This document shows, piece by piece, positions 32,334 to 45,169 of a stretch of 53,775 nt of DNA (its first letter is position 1; every line of letters begins with the position of its first letter). The DNA is taken from positions 1-53,775 of the forward strand of contig JAFYHG010000002.1 in NCBI GenBank assembly GCA_017539265.1, written 5' to 3'. A program made the position numbers and the translations under genes. The DNA is from Alphaproteobacteria bacterium (GTDB lineage Bacteria; Pseudomonadota; Alphaproteobacteria; CAAHEQ01; UBA3637). The notes beneath the pieces were generated by a model. The model was not told the DNA's origin. It did no database searches and worked only from the letters and a program-made list of their open reading frames with translations.

Positions 32334-33611
32334 ATGCAAGAACAACCTATTTTATCCGTGACTGAGGTTTCCTTAACCCTTAAATCCTGTGTAGAACAGG
32401 TTTTTTCCCATATTCGTGTCCGAGGTGAAGTATCGGGTGTTAAGACGGTTTCCTCCGGTCACACCTATTTTTCTCTAAAGGATAAAGATTCCGTTTTATC
32501 TGCCATTTGTTGGCGCGGGACAGGAGTTTCCACACGTGCCGCCCTTCAAGAAGGCCTCGAAGTCATCTGTACCGGTAAACTTTCCACTTACCCCGGTCGC
32601 TCTACTTATCAAATGATCGTCGAATCGGCTGAACCGGCCGGCATCGGCGCCCTCTTAAAACTTTTGAATGAGCGCAAAGAACGCTTTGAAAAGGAAGGCC
32701 TTTTTGACCCTTCTCATAAAAAATCTATTCCTTTTTTACCGACCTATATCGGTGTTATCACAAGCCCTACCGGTGCCGTTATTCGTGACATCATGCATCG
32801 CCTGAACGATCGCTTTCCTCGCTCCGTTTATTTGTGGCCGGTGGCGGTCCAAGGTGAAGGGGCCGCCGATCAGGTTGCGGCCGCCATTCGCGGTTTTAAT
32901 ACCCTTCCCGCCGGTGGGCTGGAAACCCCTGACGGGCTCATCCACCGTCCTGACGTTCTTATTGTGGCGCGCGGTGGTGGTAGTTTAGAGGATCTATGGT
33001 GCTTTAATGAGGAATCTGTTGTTCGCGCCACTTACGAATCAGATATTCCTATTATTTCAGCCGTCGGACACGAAACAGATACCACTCTTATTGATTATGT
33101 ATCGGATTTGCGCGCCCCGACACCGACCGGTGCCGCCGAAAAAGCAGTCCCTGTGCGTAGCCAACTGATTTCACAAATTCAAAATTTGAATGCACGACTG
33201 ACCGATTCGCTCTATCGATTGACGGATACCAAGGCACTTCAATTAAAATCATTAACGCTCCCTGACCTTTCTGAAATTATCAATATGCAGTTTCAAAAAC
33301 TCGATGACCGTTCCGAACGCTTTCAATCGGCTTTGCGAACCTATTGGCAGCAAATCAATTTAAAATTTGAGTCAGTATCTAAGTTATTGAAATCATATTC
33401 ATATCATTCAATTTTAGAGCGCGGCTTTGCCCTTGTTTCAGGCCCCTCCGGCCAAATTATCAGCCACTTATCCGATGCTCGGCGTGAAAAACGGCTTCAA
33501 ATTTCGTTTTCCGATGGCTCTCTTGCGGTTATGCCAACCACACATTCTGTCGTTCATGGCTCAAAAACCCCTCAATTTTCCGTTCAAGGAGATCTTTTTG
33601 ATGAAAAATAA
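32334..33611 (+). CDS. xseA: Exodeoxyribonuclease VII large subunit
   Basis: The 425-residue protein has the N-terminal OB fold (ILSVTEVSLTLKSCVEQVFSHIRVRGEVSG, about 5-34; GHTYFSLKDKDS) and the catalytic region PTYIGVITSPTGAVIRDI (about 138-155), VLIVARGGGSLEDLWCFNEE (about 208-227), SAVGHETDTTLIDYVSDLRAPTPTGAAE (about 238-265), then a coiled coil. It degrades single-stranded DNA with XseB. The length is slightly short of the usual 440-460. Its last 11 bp overlap the M23 peptidase gene. Confidence 0.95.
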   Translation: MQEQPILSVTEVSLTLKSCVEQVFSHIRVRGEVSGVKTVSSGHTYFSLKDKDSVLSAICWRGTGVSTRAALQEGLEVICTGKLSTYPGRSTYQMIVESAEPAGIGALLKLLNERKERFEKEGLFDPSHKKSIPFLPTYIGVITSPTGAVIRDIMHRLNDRFPRSVYLWPVAVQGEGAADQVAAAIRGFNTLPAGGLETPDGLIHRPDVLIVARGGGSLEDLWCFNEESVVRATYESDIPIISAVGHETDTTLIDYVSDLRAPTPTGAAEKAVPVRSQLISQIQNLNARLTDSLYRLTDTKALQLKSLTLPDLSEIINMQFQKLDDRSERFQSALRTYWQQINLKFESVSKLLKSYSYHSILERGFALVSGPSGQIISHLSDARREKRLQISFSDGSLAVMPTTHSVVHGSKTPQFSVQGDLFDEK

Positions 33612-34566
33612 TCACAATGTAATTACATTTTTTAAAGAATTATACAAAGTAATTACACAAAATATAAGTAATTACAAAGTATATACATATTTTTACAGTA
33701 ATAATAACGTAATTACATATTTCAAAAATAATCACAATGTAATTACAAAAATTATACTATATTACATTGTAATTACATTTTCTTTTCCGGCATGGTCCCT
33801 CTCTTTTAATTCTGATTTAACGGAAGGCAGCCTTATCTTCGGGCAATTAGATCCAGGTGAAACCGTTTTTATTGAAGAATCCGATTTAAATATCGGAAAA
33901 AACAGTAATAATCTCTTTCAAATTCACAAGGATAAAAATAATCGTTTTATCATCGGTATTCCCCAAGATGCCAAAGAAATTACTCTAACAATTAAAAATG
34001 GAAGTACTTCAAAAACAAAAACTTTTCCGGTAAAACACCGTTCATGGGATGAAGATTATGTAACAGGGCTTCCCTCCGCGAAAGTAAATCCGAACCCCGC
34101 CAATCAAAAACGCATTACCGATGAATCCCTTCAAATGCGGCGGGCACGTCAAAATTCAAATTATGCTTCCTTTCCCGAAAAATGGACTTGCCCTGTTCCT
34201 GAACACACACGTATTTCAAGCCGTTTTGGCAGCCGTCGTATTTTAAATAATGTTAAAAAACAAGGACATAGCGGAACTGATTTAGCTGCCCCCGTCGGCA
34301 CGCCCGTTTTGGCACCTGCCGATGGTAAAGTCGCTCTCATTCATCCGGATATGTTTTTAACCGGTAAAACTATTTTAATTGATCATGGGTTTGGCGTATT
34401 TTCCAGTTATTCCCATTTAAATTCAATTAATGTTAAATTAAATCAAACAGTTAAATCAGGTGATTTATTGGGAACCGTTGGGCAAACCGGCCGTGCCACA
34501 GGGCCTCATTTACATTGGACAATAACCTGGTATGGTGTCCGCGTCAATCCGGAAGATTTAATTTAA
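33601..34566 (+). CDS. M23 family (LytM) peptidoglycan endopeptidase with repeat-expanded N-terminus
   Basis: The 321-residue protein starts at the ATG at 33601 (AAGGAG nine bases upstream). The C-terminal LytM domain has RISSRFGSRR (about 201-210), GHSGTDLAAPVGTPVLAPADG (about 220-240) with the zinc His and Asp, and GPHLHWTI (about 300-307), so the active site is complete. The N-terminus is odd: residues 5-57 are a 10-residue repeat around NVIT/KVIT, produced by GTAATTAC words every 30 bp. The true export signal seems to be its last part (KIILYYIVITFSFPAWS). It cuts peptidoglycan cross-links in the periplasm. Confidence 0.85.
   Translation: MKNNHNVITFFKELYKVITQNISNYKVYTYFYSNNNVITYFKNNHNVITKIILYYIVITFSFPAWSLSFNSDLTEGSLIFGQLDPGETVFIEESDLNIGKNSNNLFQIHKDKNNRFIIGIPQDAKEITLTIKNGSTSKTKTFPVKHRSWDEDYVTGLPSAKVNPNPANQKRITDESLQMRRARQNSNYASFPEKWTCPVPEHTRISSRFGSRRILNNVKKQGHSGTDLAAPVGTPVLAPADGKVALIHPDMFLTGKTILIDHGFGVFSSYSHLNSINVKLNQTVKSGDLLGTVGQTGRATGPHLHWTITWYGVRVNPEDLI
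33619..33776. repeat. GTAATTAC palindrome array A (30-bp period)
   Basis: The perfect 8-bp palindrome GTAATTAC occurs at 33619, 33649, 33709, 33739 and 33769, with GTATATAC at 33679, giving an exact 30-bp period over six units. An extra copy lies at 33668, 19 bp after the second. Many copies extend to ATGTAATTACAT. The array begins just after the xseA stop and is translated as the start of the M23 protein. A 24-bp stretch at about 33604 recurs 120 bp later, showing tandem duplication. Confidence 0.9.
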
Positions 34567-37881: not shown

Positions 37882-38252
37882 CTGTATTCTCCTTTTCTTT
37901 CAGAAAAGAGTATCATATTTTTTACTGGTTTTCAAGGGATTTTTACCGAAAAAATTTATCCACTTTTTTCCTTTCATTATTATAATAAAAATAAATTAGA
38001 ATTAGTAGAGGGTGTGAATTATGTGCAAAACTTTTTTTATTTTTTCTTGACACTCCCTTTTTATTTTTATCGAATCGTTAAAAATAGTGGATCCTGATTT
38101 TTATTAAGGTCTAAAATTTACTAGCTACCCTCTGTGGATTTAGACATGAATATTTTTGAATAAAAAAATAGGATTTTGTAAAAATAAAAAAGTTATCCCC
38201 ATGATTCACAATTTTCTTGTCTCTTTTTTATTTTTTTGATATAATCTTCGGC
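37882..38252. other. Candidate replication origin (oriC) region
   Basis: This is the longest gene-free stretch, about 370 bp and very AT-rich, between divergent cysS and dnaQ. Near-consensus DnaA boxes (TTATNCACA) are TTATCCACT (37956-37964), TAATTCACA (minus, 38013-38021), TTATCCCCA (38193-38201) and TGATTCACA (38202-38210), each one mismatch off, plus a two-mismatch box at 38133-38141. The last two are adjacent. parS-like sites and parAB follow within 3 kb. The strand bias of base use appears to flip near here by eye. Origin function is inferred. Confidence 0.55.
38217..38245 (+). promoter_or_regulatory. dnaQ promoter predicting a leaderless mRNA
   Basis: TTGTCT (38217-38222), a 17-bp spacer and TATAAT (38240-38245) are followed by 7 bp and the dnaQ ATG. 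No Shine-Dalgarno is present, so transcription likely starts at the ATG. Confidence 0.7.
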
Positions 38253-38942
38253 ATGAGAGAAATTGTCCTAGATACAGAAACAACAGGGTTGGATCCCGAA
38301 CAAGGCCATAAAATTGTTGAAATCGGTTGCGTGGAATTGGTAAACCATATGCCGACAGGGCGGACTTTTCAAGAATATTTAAATCCGGAACGGGAAATGG
38401 GTGAGGATGTTATTGCTGTTCACGGAATTACAAATGAGTTTTTGAAAGATAAGCCAAAATTTAAAGAAGTTGCTGAAAAATTTATAGAATTTATTGGAAC
38501 TGATTCAAAACTTGTTATTCATAATGCGGCGTTTGATATGAAATTTTTGAATGCTGAATTGTCTACGGCCGGTTATGAAAAATTATCTTTTGATCGCGTT
38601 ATAGATACATTAATTATGGCGCGGCAAAAATTTCCCGGCAGTCGTGTCAATTTAAATGAACTTTGTAAACGGTTTAATGTGGATGCCTCACGTCGAACTG
38701 TTCACGGGGCATTGTTGGATAGTGAATTATTGGCAGAGGTTTACTTAGAATTAATTGGTGGTCGTGAACCGGGGTTGGTTTTGAATGCCCAAAAATCTTC
38801 TGTTCAAAAAACTGAACAAGTCCATGAAAAAGTAGAACATATCTTTCATGAGCCACGCTCTTTTCCTGTCCCCTCGGAAGAGTTGGCAGCACATCGGGAA
38901 TTTTTGAAAAAAATATCTGATAATTTATGGGAAAAATCATGA
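38253..38942 (+). CDS. dnaQ: DNA polymerase III epsilon subunit (proofreading exonuclease)
   Basis: I start at the ATG at 38253 (229 residues, MREIVLDTETTGLDP...), since the promoter lies just upstream. DEDDh exonuclease motifs: VLDTETTGLD (about 4-13), HNAAFDMKFLNAEL (about 87-100) and the final HGALLDSELLAEVY (about 150-163). The C-terminal 60 residues form the link to the alpha subunit. It provides proofreading in the replicase. The stop overlaps the next ATG by 4 bp. Confidence 0.95.
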   Translation: MREIVLDTETTGLDPEQGHKIVEIGCVELVNHMPTGRTFQEYLNPEREMGEDVIAVHGITNEFLKDKPKFKEVAEKFIEFIGTDSKLVIHNAAFDMKFLNAELSTAGYEKLSFDRVIDTLIMARQKFPGSRVNLNELCKRFNVDASRRTVHGALLDSELLAEVYLELIGGREPGLVLNAQKSSVQKTEQVHEKVEHIFHEPRSFPVPSEELAAHREFLKKISDNLWEKS

Positions 38943-39382
38943 AAAAATTATTATTTTTTATTGCGTTATCTGTTTCATTTCCAATCCATGCGCAAATGAT
39001 TGATGTCTTAGGTACTTTGGGTGTTCAAGGTGCTATGACGGTTGGCGATACGCAATCGGCTGCAATGGGAATGTCCGCATTAAAGAAAAATAAAATTTTA
39101 CAGGATATTACACAAACAGCTATGCAAATAAAAACGCAATTTATGGGCGACTATTCTTCTGTTAGTAGGGATTCCGTATTCGGTAATCCTTTTTCAGGCA
39201 TTGATTGGGATATCGGATCAGAATCATCAAATTTGTTTTATATTCAATTAAATCAAATAAATAAAACTACCTGTTCTTCACTTTTGTCGGCTCGGGTTCC
39301 AACTGTTTGGACAGAATTAAACGGGGATGCCGGATCAAGAGCTTGTGAAGAGAGTAATGAAATTAAATTTGTTTTTGATTAA
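38939..39382 (+). CDS. Hypothetical secreted protein
   Basis: I start at the ATG overlapping the dnaQ stop (ATGA), giving 147 residues. A signal peptide (MKKLLFFIALSVSFPIHA, cut before QMI) is followed by a Met/Gly/Thr-rich helix region (TLGVQGAMTVGDTQSAAMGMSAL) and a C-terminal part with three Cys. The family is not recognised. Its coupling to dnaQ suggests a locally evolved exported gene using the dnaQ promoter. Confidence 0.65.
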   Translation: MKKLLFFIALSVSFPIHAQMIDVLGTLGVQGAMTVGDTQSAAMGMSALKKNKILQDITQTAMQIKTQFMGDYSSVSRDSVFGNPFSGIDWDIGSESSNLFYIQLNQINKTTCSSLLSARVPTVWTELNGDAGSRACEESNEIKFVFD

Positions 39383-39397
39383 GTTTCACGTGAAATA
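39382..39397. other. parS-like centromere site 1
   Basis: AGTTTCACGTGAAATA differs from the parS consensus TGTTTCACGTGAAACA at two outer positions and keeps the full GTTTCACGTGAAA core. It lies in the gap just before rsmG. Confidence 0.8.
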
Positions 39398-39444: not shown

Positions 39445-40053
39445 ATGTTTCACATGAAACAAATTGATATATTTTTAAAAGCGTCCGAAAAAGATATATA
39501 TATATATATTGACACATTAAAAAAGTGGCAAAAAGCCGTTAATTTAGTGTCAAATGCCTCTTTAAATGATGTTTGGAATAGGCATATTGTGGATTCTGCT
39601 CAACTGTATCCACTTATTCCTTCATCGGCAAAAACGTTGATAGATTTTGGCAGCGGTGCCGGTTTTCCGGCCTTAGCATTGGCAATTTTGAATAAAAATA
39701 ATCAAGGGCCCCTAACCCAAATTATTTTGATTGAAAGCGATACTAAAAAATGCCTGTTTTTAAAAGAAATTGCTCGTGTTTTAAAATTACCTGTTCAAAT
39801 TTTAAATCAGCGTATTGAAAATATTCAAAATATTTCGGCAGACGTAATTACATCTCGTGGTTTGGCCGATGTGGATACCCTTTTAAACTTAAGTCGCCCC
39901 TTTATTCAAAAAGATACCGTTTGCCTATTTTTAAAAGGGAAATCTGTTCAGAAAGAAATTGAAGAGAATACAGTTCCCTGTTCTATAGAAAAAATAAAAA
40001 GTATAACAAATTCAGATAGTTTTATATTAAAAATCACGGAGGTTTTGAAATGA
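39445..40053 (+). CDS. rsmG: 16S rRNA m7G527 methyltransferase RsmG
   Basis: The 202-residue Rossmann methyltransferase has motif I TLIDFGSGAGFPALALAIL (about 65-83), IILIESDTKKCLFLKEIARVL (about 94-114), the upstream NLVSNASLNDVWNRHIVDS and VITSRGLADVDTLL (about 133-146). It methylates G527 of 16S rRNA. The start is uncertain: TTG 39436 (weak GGA upstream), ATG 39445 or ATG 39454. A parS-like site covers the last two. The stop overlaps the parA ATG (ATGA). Confidence 0.93.
   Translation: MFHMKQIDIFLKASEKDIYIYIDTLKKWQKAVNLVSNASLNDVWNRHIVDSAQLYPLIPSSAKTLIDFGSGAGFPALALAILNKNNQGPLTQIILIESDTKKCLFLKEIARVLKLPVQILNQRIENIQNISADVITSRGLADVDTLLNLSRPFIQKDTVCLFLKGKSVQKEIEENTVPCSIEKIKSITNSDSFILKITEVLK
39446..39461. 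other. parS-like centromere site 2, over the rsmG start
   Basis: TGTTTCACATGAAACA has one central mismatch to the parS consensus. It lies 64 bp from site 1 and overlaps the rsmG start codons, so ParB spreading could affect rsmG-parAB expression. Confidence 0.82.
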
Positions 40054-42761: not shown

Positions 42762-43253
42762 ATGTCAAAATATATTGTTCTTTGTTTGGGATTTTTATTG
42801 GCGGCCTGTGGTTTCCAGCCCCTATATGTAACACATGAGGATACCCTTTCTCAAACAGCAGCCGTTCAAATTGAACCGATTTCGGGTGAGGGTGGCTATC
42901 AAGCAGAATTAATTTTAAAAAAGCGCTTAAATCCCGAACAAATGAAAATTGCCCCAAAATATCGCTTGGTTGTAACGTTGAATAAACCATCCTATTCCAA
43001 CCAAAGTATTAGATCGGATAACTTTGCCTCATTGGAAAAAATGGAAATAACAGCCGATTATAAGTTAATAGATATTCAAAAAAAGCAAACACTTATTTCT
43101 TCATCTGTTGATTCAAACGGGATTTATAATTTGATTAAAGATCCGTATGCAACCGTAATGGCCAAAGATAAATTATACGAAAATTTAATTCGAACGATGG
43201 CAGATGATATTGCAACACATATTTTGTCTTATTTTAAAGGGGTTAATCCGTGA
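42762..43253 (+). CDS. lptE: LPS assembly lipoprotein LptE
   Basis: The 163-residue protein has a lipoprotein signal (MSKYIVLCLGFLLAAC, lipobox LAAC) followed by GFQPLY, the hallmark start of mature LptE. The rest is consistent with the LptE alpha/beta fold (LILKKRLNPEQMKIAPKYRLVVTL, ITADYKLIDIQ). It plugs the LptD barrel in the outer membrane. lptE-holA is a conserved alphaproteobacterial pair; the two overlap by 4 bp. Confidence 0.9.
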   Translation: MSKYIVLCLGFLLAACGFQPLYVTHEDTLSQTAAVQIEPISGEGGYQAELILKKRLNPEQMKIAPKYRLVVTLNKPSYSNQSIRSDNFASLEKMEITADYKLIDIQKKQTLISSSVDSNGIYNLIKDPYATVMAKDKLYENLIRTMADDIATHILSYFKGVNP

Positions 43254-44272
43254 AAGCCAAGCCTTATCAAGTGACTTCCCTTGTGCCGCAAATACAAAAC
43301 GGATTTAAGGGGGCTTTGATTTTCGGACCTGATTTCGGTGTGGTTCAGGAAATATCGGAAAAAATTGCTTCTTTTATTGTTCCGGATATATCGGATGCAT
43401 TTGGTGTTATTAAAATAACCCCACAAAAAATAAAGGAAATTCCAAGTATTTTATTAGATGAAGGAAACGCTGGAGGATTGTTTGGTGGGCGTAAAATTTT
43501 GTGGCTTAAAAATGCGGACAACGCTATTTTAAATGCGGTTGAGGATTATTTGGATCATATTCAAAATAATACTTTTTTATTAATAACTGCCGATAATTTA
43601 ACAAAAAATTCAGCACTGCGTGTCTTTTGTGAATCCCATCCAAATATATTGTGTGTGGCATGTTATGCCGATTCGGAACGGGATGTTGCCGAATATATTC
43701 GTGAAACTTTGAGCGGGCAGGGGATTCGGATTTCAAATGCGGCCATGCCAATGTTGATGGATCGGTTGGGGGAAAATCGGATTTCTACAAAAAAAGAACT
43801 AGAAAAATTAATAACTTATTTAGGTGATAAAAAAACAGTTGAAGAAGCCGATGTAATGGCTGTTGTGACGGATACCCAAAATTCATCAGTGGATTTATTT
43901 TGTTCGGCTGTGGCCATGGGAAATCAAAAAATGGCCGAAAAAGAGTATCAATTAATGTTGGCAAATGGTGAAAATCCTGTTGGTATTATAAGAATATTAT
44001 ATTTATATTTTAATAAGTTATTAGATGCTGTTGCAACAGCTGAAACTCAAGGAATTGATGCTGGAATCAAAAAAATCATGAAACCGGCACAATTTCGGAT
44101 GGAAGCAGGCTTCAGAAAACAATTGACTATTTGGAAAAAGTCTTTTGTTTTAAAAGTATTAGATTTGTTGTTGGAAACTGAAAAGCAAGCAAAAAGTACC
44201 GGTTTTCCGATAGAAATAATCTTGGGACGTATCATTATACAAATTACGCATGTGGCACAGCGAAAATCGTAA
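43250..44272 (+). CDS. holA: DNA polymerase III delta subunit
   Basis: The 340-residue clamp-loader subunit starts at GTG overlapping lptE. Seen are GALIFGPDFGVVQEISEKIA (about 20-39), LLDEGNAGGLFGGRKILWLKNA (about 66-87), LMDRLGENRISTKKELEKLITYLG (about 166-189) and the C-terminal helical collar domain. It opens the DnaN ring. The stop codon TAA is part of the first GTAATTAC word of array B. Confidence 0.92.
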   Translation: MKAKPYQVTSLVPQIQNGFKGALIFGPDFGVVQEISEKIASFIVPDISDAFGVIKITPQKIKEIPSILLDEGNAGGLFGGRKILWLKNADNAILNAVEDYLDHIQNNTFLLITADNLTKNSALRVFCESHPNILCVACYADSERDVAEYIRETLSGQGIRISNAAMPMLMDRLGENRISTKKELEKLITYLGDKKTVEEADVMAVVTDTQNSSVDLFCSAVAMGNQKMAEKEYQLMLANGENPVGIIRILYLYFNKLLDAVATAETQGIDAGIKKIMKPAQFRMEAGFRKQLTIWKKSFVLKVLDLLLETEKQAKSTGFPIEIILGRIIIQITHVAQRKS

Positions 44273-44348
44273 TTACAATGTAATTATTTACCTATTTTGT
44301 AATTACTTTATAATTACATTTTAATCAAAGGATATACATTGTAATTAC
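44269..44348. repeat. GTAATTAC palindrome array B
   Basis: GTAATTAC lies at 44269, 44299 and 44341, with one-base variants GTAATTAT at 44280 and ATAATTAC at 44310. Spacing alternates 3 and 11 bp between words (19 + 11 = 30 bp period), the same geometry as array A (33668 lies 19 bp after 33649). It begins at the holA stop. The rest of the 44273-44512 gap holds the DUF3841 promoter. Confidence 0.85.
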
Positions 44349-44436: not shown

Positions 44437-44464
44437 TTGACAAACAGGGGAAAAATGATAGAAT
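44437..44464 (+). promoter_or_regulatory. Promoter of DUF3841 gene
   Basis: TTGACA (44437-44442), a 16-bp spacer and TAGAAT (44459-44464) lie about 48 bp upstream of the ATG. Confidence 0.7.
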
Positions 44465-44512
44465 GATGAGGAGAAAAACTGTTATTCTATCAATTAGTTA
44501 GGAGTGAAAAAA

Positions 44513-45169
44513 ATGAAATTGGTGACTTTTCAATCTGGGGAGGCTTTTGAAATTCTGAAAAAAGCAGGGGTTTTGAGGGTTGATGAGAGCAAAATCGATT
44601 TCCCCAGATATGAAAGGCCATACAATTTTATTGTAAAAAGTATGCTATCGCGCTGTATAAAGCCGGCAGCGGGGCAGGGATATCCTTTGTGGGCTTGGGC
44701 TAAATGCGGGGCACATATCGGGCCAAAGAAAATTCCGAATAAAACACATAAAGTTCAAAATAAAGTAAAAATTACTTTTGAAAAGAAAGATTCGGATGTA
44801 TTGATTTCGGATTATATGGCCTATTCTTTTATCTTAAGTGGGCAAATCGTTCCGAAAACACGAGCGGAATATGAGCACTTTGAGCAAGAGTTAATCCGTT
44901 TGGGGATTTCTAAGGACGCTTTGAAAGCGTGGGTGAGGGGACAGGATAATTCCAAAATACCCGCCCCAAAAATAGAGGCAACATGGAAAAATATTTTTGA
45001 TTTAAAATCAAATGTTTATCAGTGTTGTTTTTGGGAGTTAAAACTTGATGAAATTATCCGTGTGGATAAGTTGGAAGACAGGGATTATCTGTACGGATCG
45101 ATGAACGCCGTGCGGGCCGACGGAACGCGGCCGGATTGGAAACAAAAATACATGCGGTTTTTGCGGTAA
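44513..45169 (+). CDS. DUF3841 domain protein
   Basis: I start at the ATG at 44513 (AGGAGTG upstream), giving 218 residues. The DUF3841 pattern is visible: MKLVTFQSGEAFEILKKAGVLRVDE at the start, YPLWAWAK (about 61-68), FEKKDSDVLISDYMAYSFIL and VYQCCFWELKLDEIIRVDKL (about 170-190). It is soluble and cytoplasmic. The function of the family is unknown; it is often found in mobile or host-interaction contexts of gut bacteria. Confidence 0.8.
   Translation: MKLVTFQSGEAFEILKKAGVLRVDESKIDFPRYERPYNFIVKSMLSRCIKPAAGQGYPLWAWAKCGAHIGPKKIPNKTHKVQNKVKITFEKKDSDVLISDYMAYSFILSGQIVPKTRAEYEHFEQELIRLGISKDALKAWVRGQDNSKIPAPKIEATWKNIFDLKSNVYQCCFWELKLDEIIRVDKLEDRDYLYGSMNAVRADGTRPDWKQKYMRFLR

Follow-up and report, generated by a model that had tools for sequence, protein, structure and literature searches.

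In the plasmid operator-centromeres of ParG, of omega from pSM19035 and of TubR, a small dimeric DNA-binding protein controls its own operon and occupies repeated sites that are usable as a centromere. Neighbouring sites are also bound in toxin-antitoxin modules, where the MazE/MazF and Kis/Kid complexes occupy several adjacent promoter palindromes as chains (PMC4803016); in M. tuberculosis, a MazE dimer recognises an operator of 18 bp located at the -10 region (PMC9477884). Of the membrane proteins that will concern us, Agrobacterium GPR has two N-terminal membrane segments and long helices (PMC8262873), and Caulobacter TipN functions together with ParA, at the new cell pole (PMC10127582). 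A search of the literature found no paper on arrays of the palindrome GTAATTAC, or on an antitoxin of the AbrB type that functions at a centromere.

Here we describe two such arrays on either side of a candidate replication origin in an alphaproteobacterium, which its gene content and the relatives of its ParB mark as an uncultured inhabitant of gut or rumen. The window is the whole stretch of DNA analysed, 53,775 nt long, and comparisons covered this genome (G000) and 42 related family genomes, 43 in all, from 13 genera. Judging from sequence comparison, we propose, at a probability of about 0.65, that the arrays are binding sites of a MazE-like protein of the AbrB fold, acting alone or with a MazF-like partner.

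Paired palindromes on both sides of the candidate origin

The array unit consists of two 8-bp palindromes with a 3-bp gap, RTAATTAC-N3-GTAATTAC, each pair approximating a 19-bp palindrome, GTAATTAC-N3-GTAATTAC. Array B (44269-44348) contains three such pairs, with exact copies of GTAATTAC at 44269, 44299 and 44341, one-mismatch copies at 44280 and 44310, and a degenerate partner at 44330. Pair 1 (44269-44287, GTAATTAC-AAT-GTAATTAT) has one mismatch to the 19-bp palindrome and overlaps the holA stop codon; pair 2 (44299-44317, GTAATTAC-TTT-ATAATTAC) follows after 11 bp, also with one mismatch, and pair 3 (44330-44348, GGATATAC-ATT-GTAATTAC) after 12 bp, with three. Array A (33608-33776) comprises six pairs with an exact period of 30 bp (33608/33619, 33638/33649, 33668/33679, 33698/33709, 33728/33739 and 33758/33769), a period also returned by a tandem-repeat search; its partner at 33638 is strongly degenerate. 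No strand is assigned to the arrays, to their pairs, or to the lone palindrome, candidate origin and parS-like site described below. The 3/11-bp spacing that the first-pass annotation had reported for both arrays is therefore real, with three and six pairs confirmed in the sequence.

Exact GTAATTAC occurred 10 times in the window against 0.83 expected (0/100 shuffles), and pairs with at most three mismatches 8 times against 0.33 expected. Pattern searches over the complete draft assembly (33 contigs totalling 1.47 Mb, unordered relative to oriC) found 7 pairs with at most two mismatches. Array A accounts for four of them and array B for two, the last being at C1:115490; a reversed control pattern gave none at the same threshold. 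The pairs were thus neither scattered evenly nor at the level of AT-rich background, the two outcomes that the annotation had named as speaking against its proposal. Single copies of GTAATTAC were not enriched genome-wide (28 places, versus 34 for a control word), so only pairs count as signal, and the lone copy inside rsmG (39844-39851), which lacks a partner and had been counted as a further site, is probably background.

When copies no more than 80 bp apart were counted as close pairs, the origin regions of 38 genomes contained 55 such pairs of GTAATTAC, and 0 or 1 for each of seven control palindromes. A centre distance of 11 bp was dominant in these regions across the family, accounting for 45 close pairs; pooled over all distances there was no clean 10.5-bp phase, and hence no fixed helical phase. 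The array region is AT-rich, as would suit an origin of the arrays by chance, from low-complexity sequence or from a decaying mobile repeat. Nevertheless, the shuffles, the reversed control and the palindrome controls, together with the presence of pairs in 12 of 13 genera, make that origin so improbable that we give it practically no weight; plain AT-richness is excluded by the near-zero control counts.

Array A starts at the 3' end of xseA (32334-33611, + strand; exonuclease VII large subunit, Pfam PF02601, Exonuc_VII_L) and lies within the 5' coding region of an M23 peptidase gene (33601-34566, + strand; PF01551). In the M23 frame the motif reads GTA ATT ACA, giving repeated V-I-T tripeptides near the N-terminus (33601-33800), and the array extends into the region of the probable signal peptide. 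Other genera show the same V-I-T coding, and the xseA-side sites fall within the M23 reading frame in this genome and in four others (G003, G012, G013 and G027); the sites may place a DNA-level constraint on the M23 5' coding region. A convincing promoter was looked for at array A and none was found. Array B begins at the end of holA (43250-44272, + strand; DNA polymerase III delta, PF21694/PF06144), and these Pfam matches bear out the earlier assignments of both xseA and holA. Adjoining array B is a DUF3841 gene (44504-45169, + strand; PF12952) with a candidate sigma-70 promoter at 44437-44464 (+ strand; TTGACA-N16-TAGAAT), 89 bp downstream of the array. At the contig end (1-1151), the window also carries a 141-bp tandem repeat (47 codons) that is repetitive and probably coding.

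The GC skew switches near 38.0 kb, with rsmG-parA-parB to the right. We take the intergenic region at the switch (37882-38216), flanked by cysS and the gene for a dnaQ-like exonuclease, as the candidate oriC; it holds only two DnaA boxes, each with one mismatch, and the only perfect TTATCCACA of the window is at 45061. A parS-like palindrome with a TTTCACGTGAAAT core lies at 39383-39397, just upstream of rsmG-parA-parB. The annotation had rightly set the arrays apart from parS, which here takes the form TTTCACGTGAAA: the array motif is unlike it and does not agree with the parS consensus TGTTTCACGTGAAACA. ParB was rejected as the array binder, given its own canonical site at ~39.38 kb. Between the dnaQ-like gene and rsmG, most family genomes keep a 151-aa gene with no Pfam match (38927-39382 here). 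Its product was weighed as a binder because the gene is conserved near oriC, and was rejected on its signal-peptide-like start and the lack of a site upstream.

The pairs and the coiled-coil/mazE/mazF operon

Pairs with at most one mismatch were present in 23 of 33 sampled family genomes (this genome counted), and pairs with at most two in 38 of the 43; at one mismatch, none was found in 24 genomes of other alphaproteobacterial families. Near parB, sites recurred at two junctions. One borders the miaA-lptE-holA block on its distal side; the other is at the 3' end of xseA, the next gene being that of the M23 peptidase (genus g3 has a gene reading as greA instead). Outside the parB contigs, many pairs lay directly upstream of one coiled-coil gene family. 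The encoded protein (~430-570 aa) has a long coiled coil and two apparent N-terminal membrane segments, as judged by eye. Immediately after its gene come those for a 72-aa MazE-like and then a 99-aa MazF-like protein, usually overlapping, as the two small ORFs do in most genomes.

In most genera a pair immediately precedes the -35 box of this operon, ending a few bases before it, and the pair travels with the operon, which is found on contigs other than that of parB in several genomes. Here the operon lies outside the window (C1:115569-117610), preceded by the pair at C1:115490. A sample of 240 alphaproteobacterial genomes yielded members of the coiled-coil family in 87, often 700-2400 aa long; the class-wide relatives share the same two ends, and the operon version is a short form. 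Neither mazEF nor GTAATTAC was found in 27 loci around class-level relatives, a limited test in that the loci are short, and the combination of coiled-coil gene, mazEF and pairs therefore appears specific to this family.

The operon follows miaA near parB in many genera, and the position of array B is on this account that of the ancestral operator. G001 shows holA followed by two pairs, the promoter and the operon; this order spans a break in the G001 assembly, which falls after holA and just before the array (L125:1-130 and L066). The two pairs in front of the G001 operon have their counterparts in pairs 1 and 2 of array B. In this genome array B is not at the mazEF operon promoter: the next gene is that for DUF3841, with its promoter 89 bp away. 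The best reading of these gene orders is that array B was probably orphaned when the operon moved. The DUF3841 gene occupies the place that the operon holds in G001, and array B may have been put to a different use after the move.

Among the matches listed, 75 pairs had at most one mismatch. Classified by approximate operon-start positions, 24 were at the operon promoter, 38 elsewhere in the origin region (near parB or on origin-block contigs), 4 at a miaA block elsewhere and 9 in other places. The xseA/M23 junction accounts for part of the 38 listed origin-region pairs, and G008/G017 and G007/G016, being close relatives, share their sites, so that fewer independent events stand behind this count. 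The enrichment at the origin exceeds the operon sites, and neighbourhood inheritance explains part of it.

These placements bear on whether the sites serve autoregulation only, array B being a relic operator and origin proximity simply reflecting where the operon (in the order parB-holA-lptE-miaA-operon) and xseA-M23 stood ancestrally. The match between the G001 layout and array B agrees with this, as does the place of the operon beside miaA in many genera. However, array B retains two one-mismatch pairs although its spacer and downstream promoter have changed, and in G003 the convergent genes parB and miaA still have sites between them, with no operon there. In addition, G008 and G017 have several perfect pairs at non-promoter places in the origin region, such pairs being reported for genus g6, and the 38 listed origin-region pairs outside the operon promoter compare with only 9 elsewhere. 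We regard autoregulation alone as a serious possibility, though on balance less likely than not. The perfect non-promoter pairs of genus g6 and the parB/miaA sites of G003 lead us to favour, tentatively, a function in the origin region beyond autoregulation.

A MazE-like protein as the candidate binder

The MazE-like gene is present in 38 of 43 family genomes and in all 13 genera, and its product is the only protein of the MazE/AbrB type in this genome and in nearly all of the family. It scored above the PF04014 cut-off in five family genomes and below it here (20.2 versus 24.7 bits). The predicted model has the swapped-hairpin element order of AbrB and MazE, and an N-terminal IGNSxGxRxP motif is near-invariant. 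A fold search placed MazE (1ub4, 2mrn) and DNA-bound VapB at the top of its PDB matches, 3zvk also being matched, with modest or weak E-values and Z scores; a sequence search against the PDB, unlike the fold search, gave nothing credible.

The MazF-like protein is a clear PemK/MazF member (PF02452, 54.9 bits against a cut-off of 23.1), and its model (pLDDT 92.5) aligns with MazF structures at a TM score, by query, of ~0.8-0.9. The catalytic Arg is kept in this genome, G001 and G013 and is Lys in most other members; Thr is mostly kept, and the beta1-beta2 loop that carries the Arg is shortened by ~7 residues. Arg-to-Lys replacement and the short loop together suggest that RNase activity may have been lost or changed in most members. 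The observation of Lys and the short loop is keyed to L148:8305-8610 and the family. Where the spacer is ATT, the arrays (33608-33776 and 44269-44348) also include TACAT, which in RNA is the target of MazF enzymes of the Bacillus type. The location of sites upstream of promoters argues against a role of the arrays at the RNA level.

Sites and genes largely co-occur. Of the 38 MazE-positive genomes, 36 have at least one pair; G006 and G060 have MazE and no pair with at most two mismatches, and G024 (98% complete) has pairs, with no mazE or coiled-coil gene found. In the clade of G028, G057 and G058 (support 100/99), the coiled-coil gene is kept, mazE and mazF are lost and there are no pairs, a coincident loss that represents a single event in one clade.

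Operators of an unrelated transcription factor, for example an OmpR-type protein such as CtrA, could also control the operon and the M23 gene. The sites do lie in operator position just upstream of -35, a cell-cycle regulon could well include an M23 peptidase together with a pole-type membrane protein, CtrA-like proteins are found in all family genomes, and the half-sites of CtrA are likewise 11 bp apart. Yet CtrA is equally present in the site-less clade, where mazEF is not, and the array motif is palindromic and unlike the CtrA motif, TTAA-N7-TTAA. Sites at only three loci in this genome would also be narrow for a global regulator. We therefore consider such a factor unlikely; CtrA itself was rejected as binder because all family genomes have it, the site-less ones too.

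The clustering of sites around the origin in most genera, and their regular 3/11-bp spacing, might instead reflect a nucleoid or origin-domain protein that is unrelated to MazEF and also touches the operon promoter. This is very doubtful: operon and pair are on non-parB contigs in several genomes, pair loss coincides with mazEF loss, and a motif restricted to one family argues against a general nucleoid protein.

Proposed role and comparison with known systems

Taken together, the 24 of 75 listed pairs that lie upstream of the operon promoter and move with the operon, the position of array B at an ancestral operator site and the overlap of array A with the M23 start lead us to conclude that the arrays are primarily operator-type sites of a toxin-antitoxin-like regulator. 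The first-pass annotation had envisaged a dimeric, cooperative binder that marks the origin domain. The arrays do look like cooperative palindrome arrays, and the annotation did not foresee the share of pairs at the coiled-coil/mazE/mazF promoter. Its origin marking is partly supported by the 38 listed origin-region pairs outside that promoter, with the reservation that these partly reflect neighbourhood inheritance and that the sites are primarily of operator type.

The following scheme is consistent with the observed site geometry, conservation, operon linkage and loss together with mazEF. Each 19-bp palindrome would take neighbouring MazE dimers, and MazF-like dimers would bridge them, the chain of pairs being filled cooperatively. 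The pair upstream of the -35 box would autoregulate the operon, and those at the xseA/M23 junction and around parB/miaA/holA would be further sites of the same MazE-like protein. At xseA/M23, bound protein could control or road-block M23 transcription; the sites there and around parB/miaA/holA could also load the MazE-like protein onto the origin region, binding, its cooperativity and any effects on transcription or the origin being the conditional parts of the scheme. In a bolder version, which we think improbable, a domesticated MazEF complex would coat the arrays on both sides of oriC/parABS, a membrane coiled-coil partner of the GPR/TipN type would tie the origin to the membrane or pole, and array occupancy would set expression of the operon and of M23.

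A regulator derived from a toxin-antitoxin module thus appears to mark the origin region of this alphaproteobacterium, linking a DNA-binding pair conserved across a family to origin-flanking arrays and a pole-type membrane protein. This offers a concrete, testable case of a toxin-antitoxin module turned housekeeping regulator or chromosome-organising factor, a conversion that is usually argued without a defined chromosomal target.

The closest described systems are the mazEF and kis-kid operators (the alternating palindrome of E. coli mazEF; regions I and II of R1 parD), which likewise combine an AbrB-fold antitoxin, a MazF-type partner and palindromes at the operon promoter. The region upstream of E. 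coli mazE contains GTATCTAC-AAT-GTAGATTG, which shares the 8-3-8 layout of the array with a TAC-AAT-GTA core and is identical at 13 of 19 positions; the match is weak (p ~0.035 against mono-nucleotide shuffles), and we read it as a weak but independent pointer to a MazE-like binder. In contrast to those modules, the operon described here opens with a membrane coiled-coil gene, its mazEF is conserved family-wide, the catalytic Arg is Lys in most members with a shortened beta1-beta2 loop, and arrays of sites are also present elsewhere than at the operon, mainly close to the origin. The ParG, omega and TubR systems resemble it in having arrays in or near promoters; they differ in that our operon, with only coiled-coil, MazE-like and MazF-like genes, has no NTPase of the ParA or TubZ type, and in that normal ParABS, including a canonical-looking parS, is present in the host. 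Like the arrays, ParB/parS and further origin-domain sites of chromosomes are palindromic and placed around oriC; the parS found here is unlike the array motif. Finally, the coiled-coil protein, at ~430-570 aa, can be likened by description to Agrobacterium GPR, Rhizobiales RgsE and Caulobacter TipN, its layout being GPR-like.
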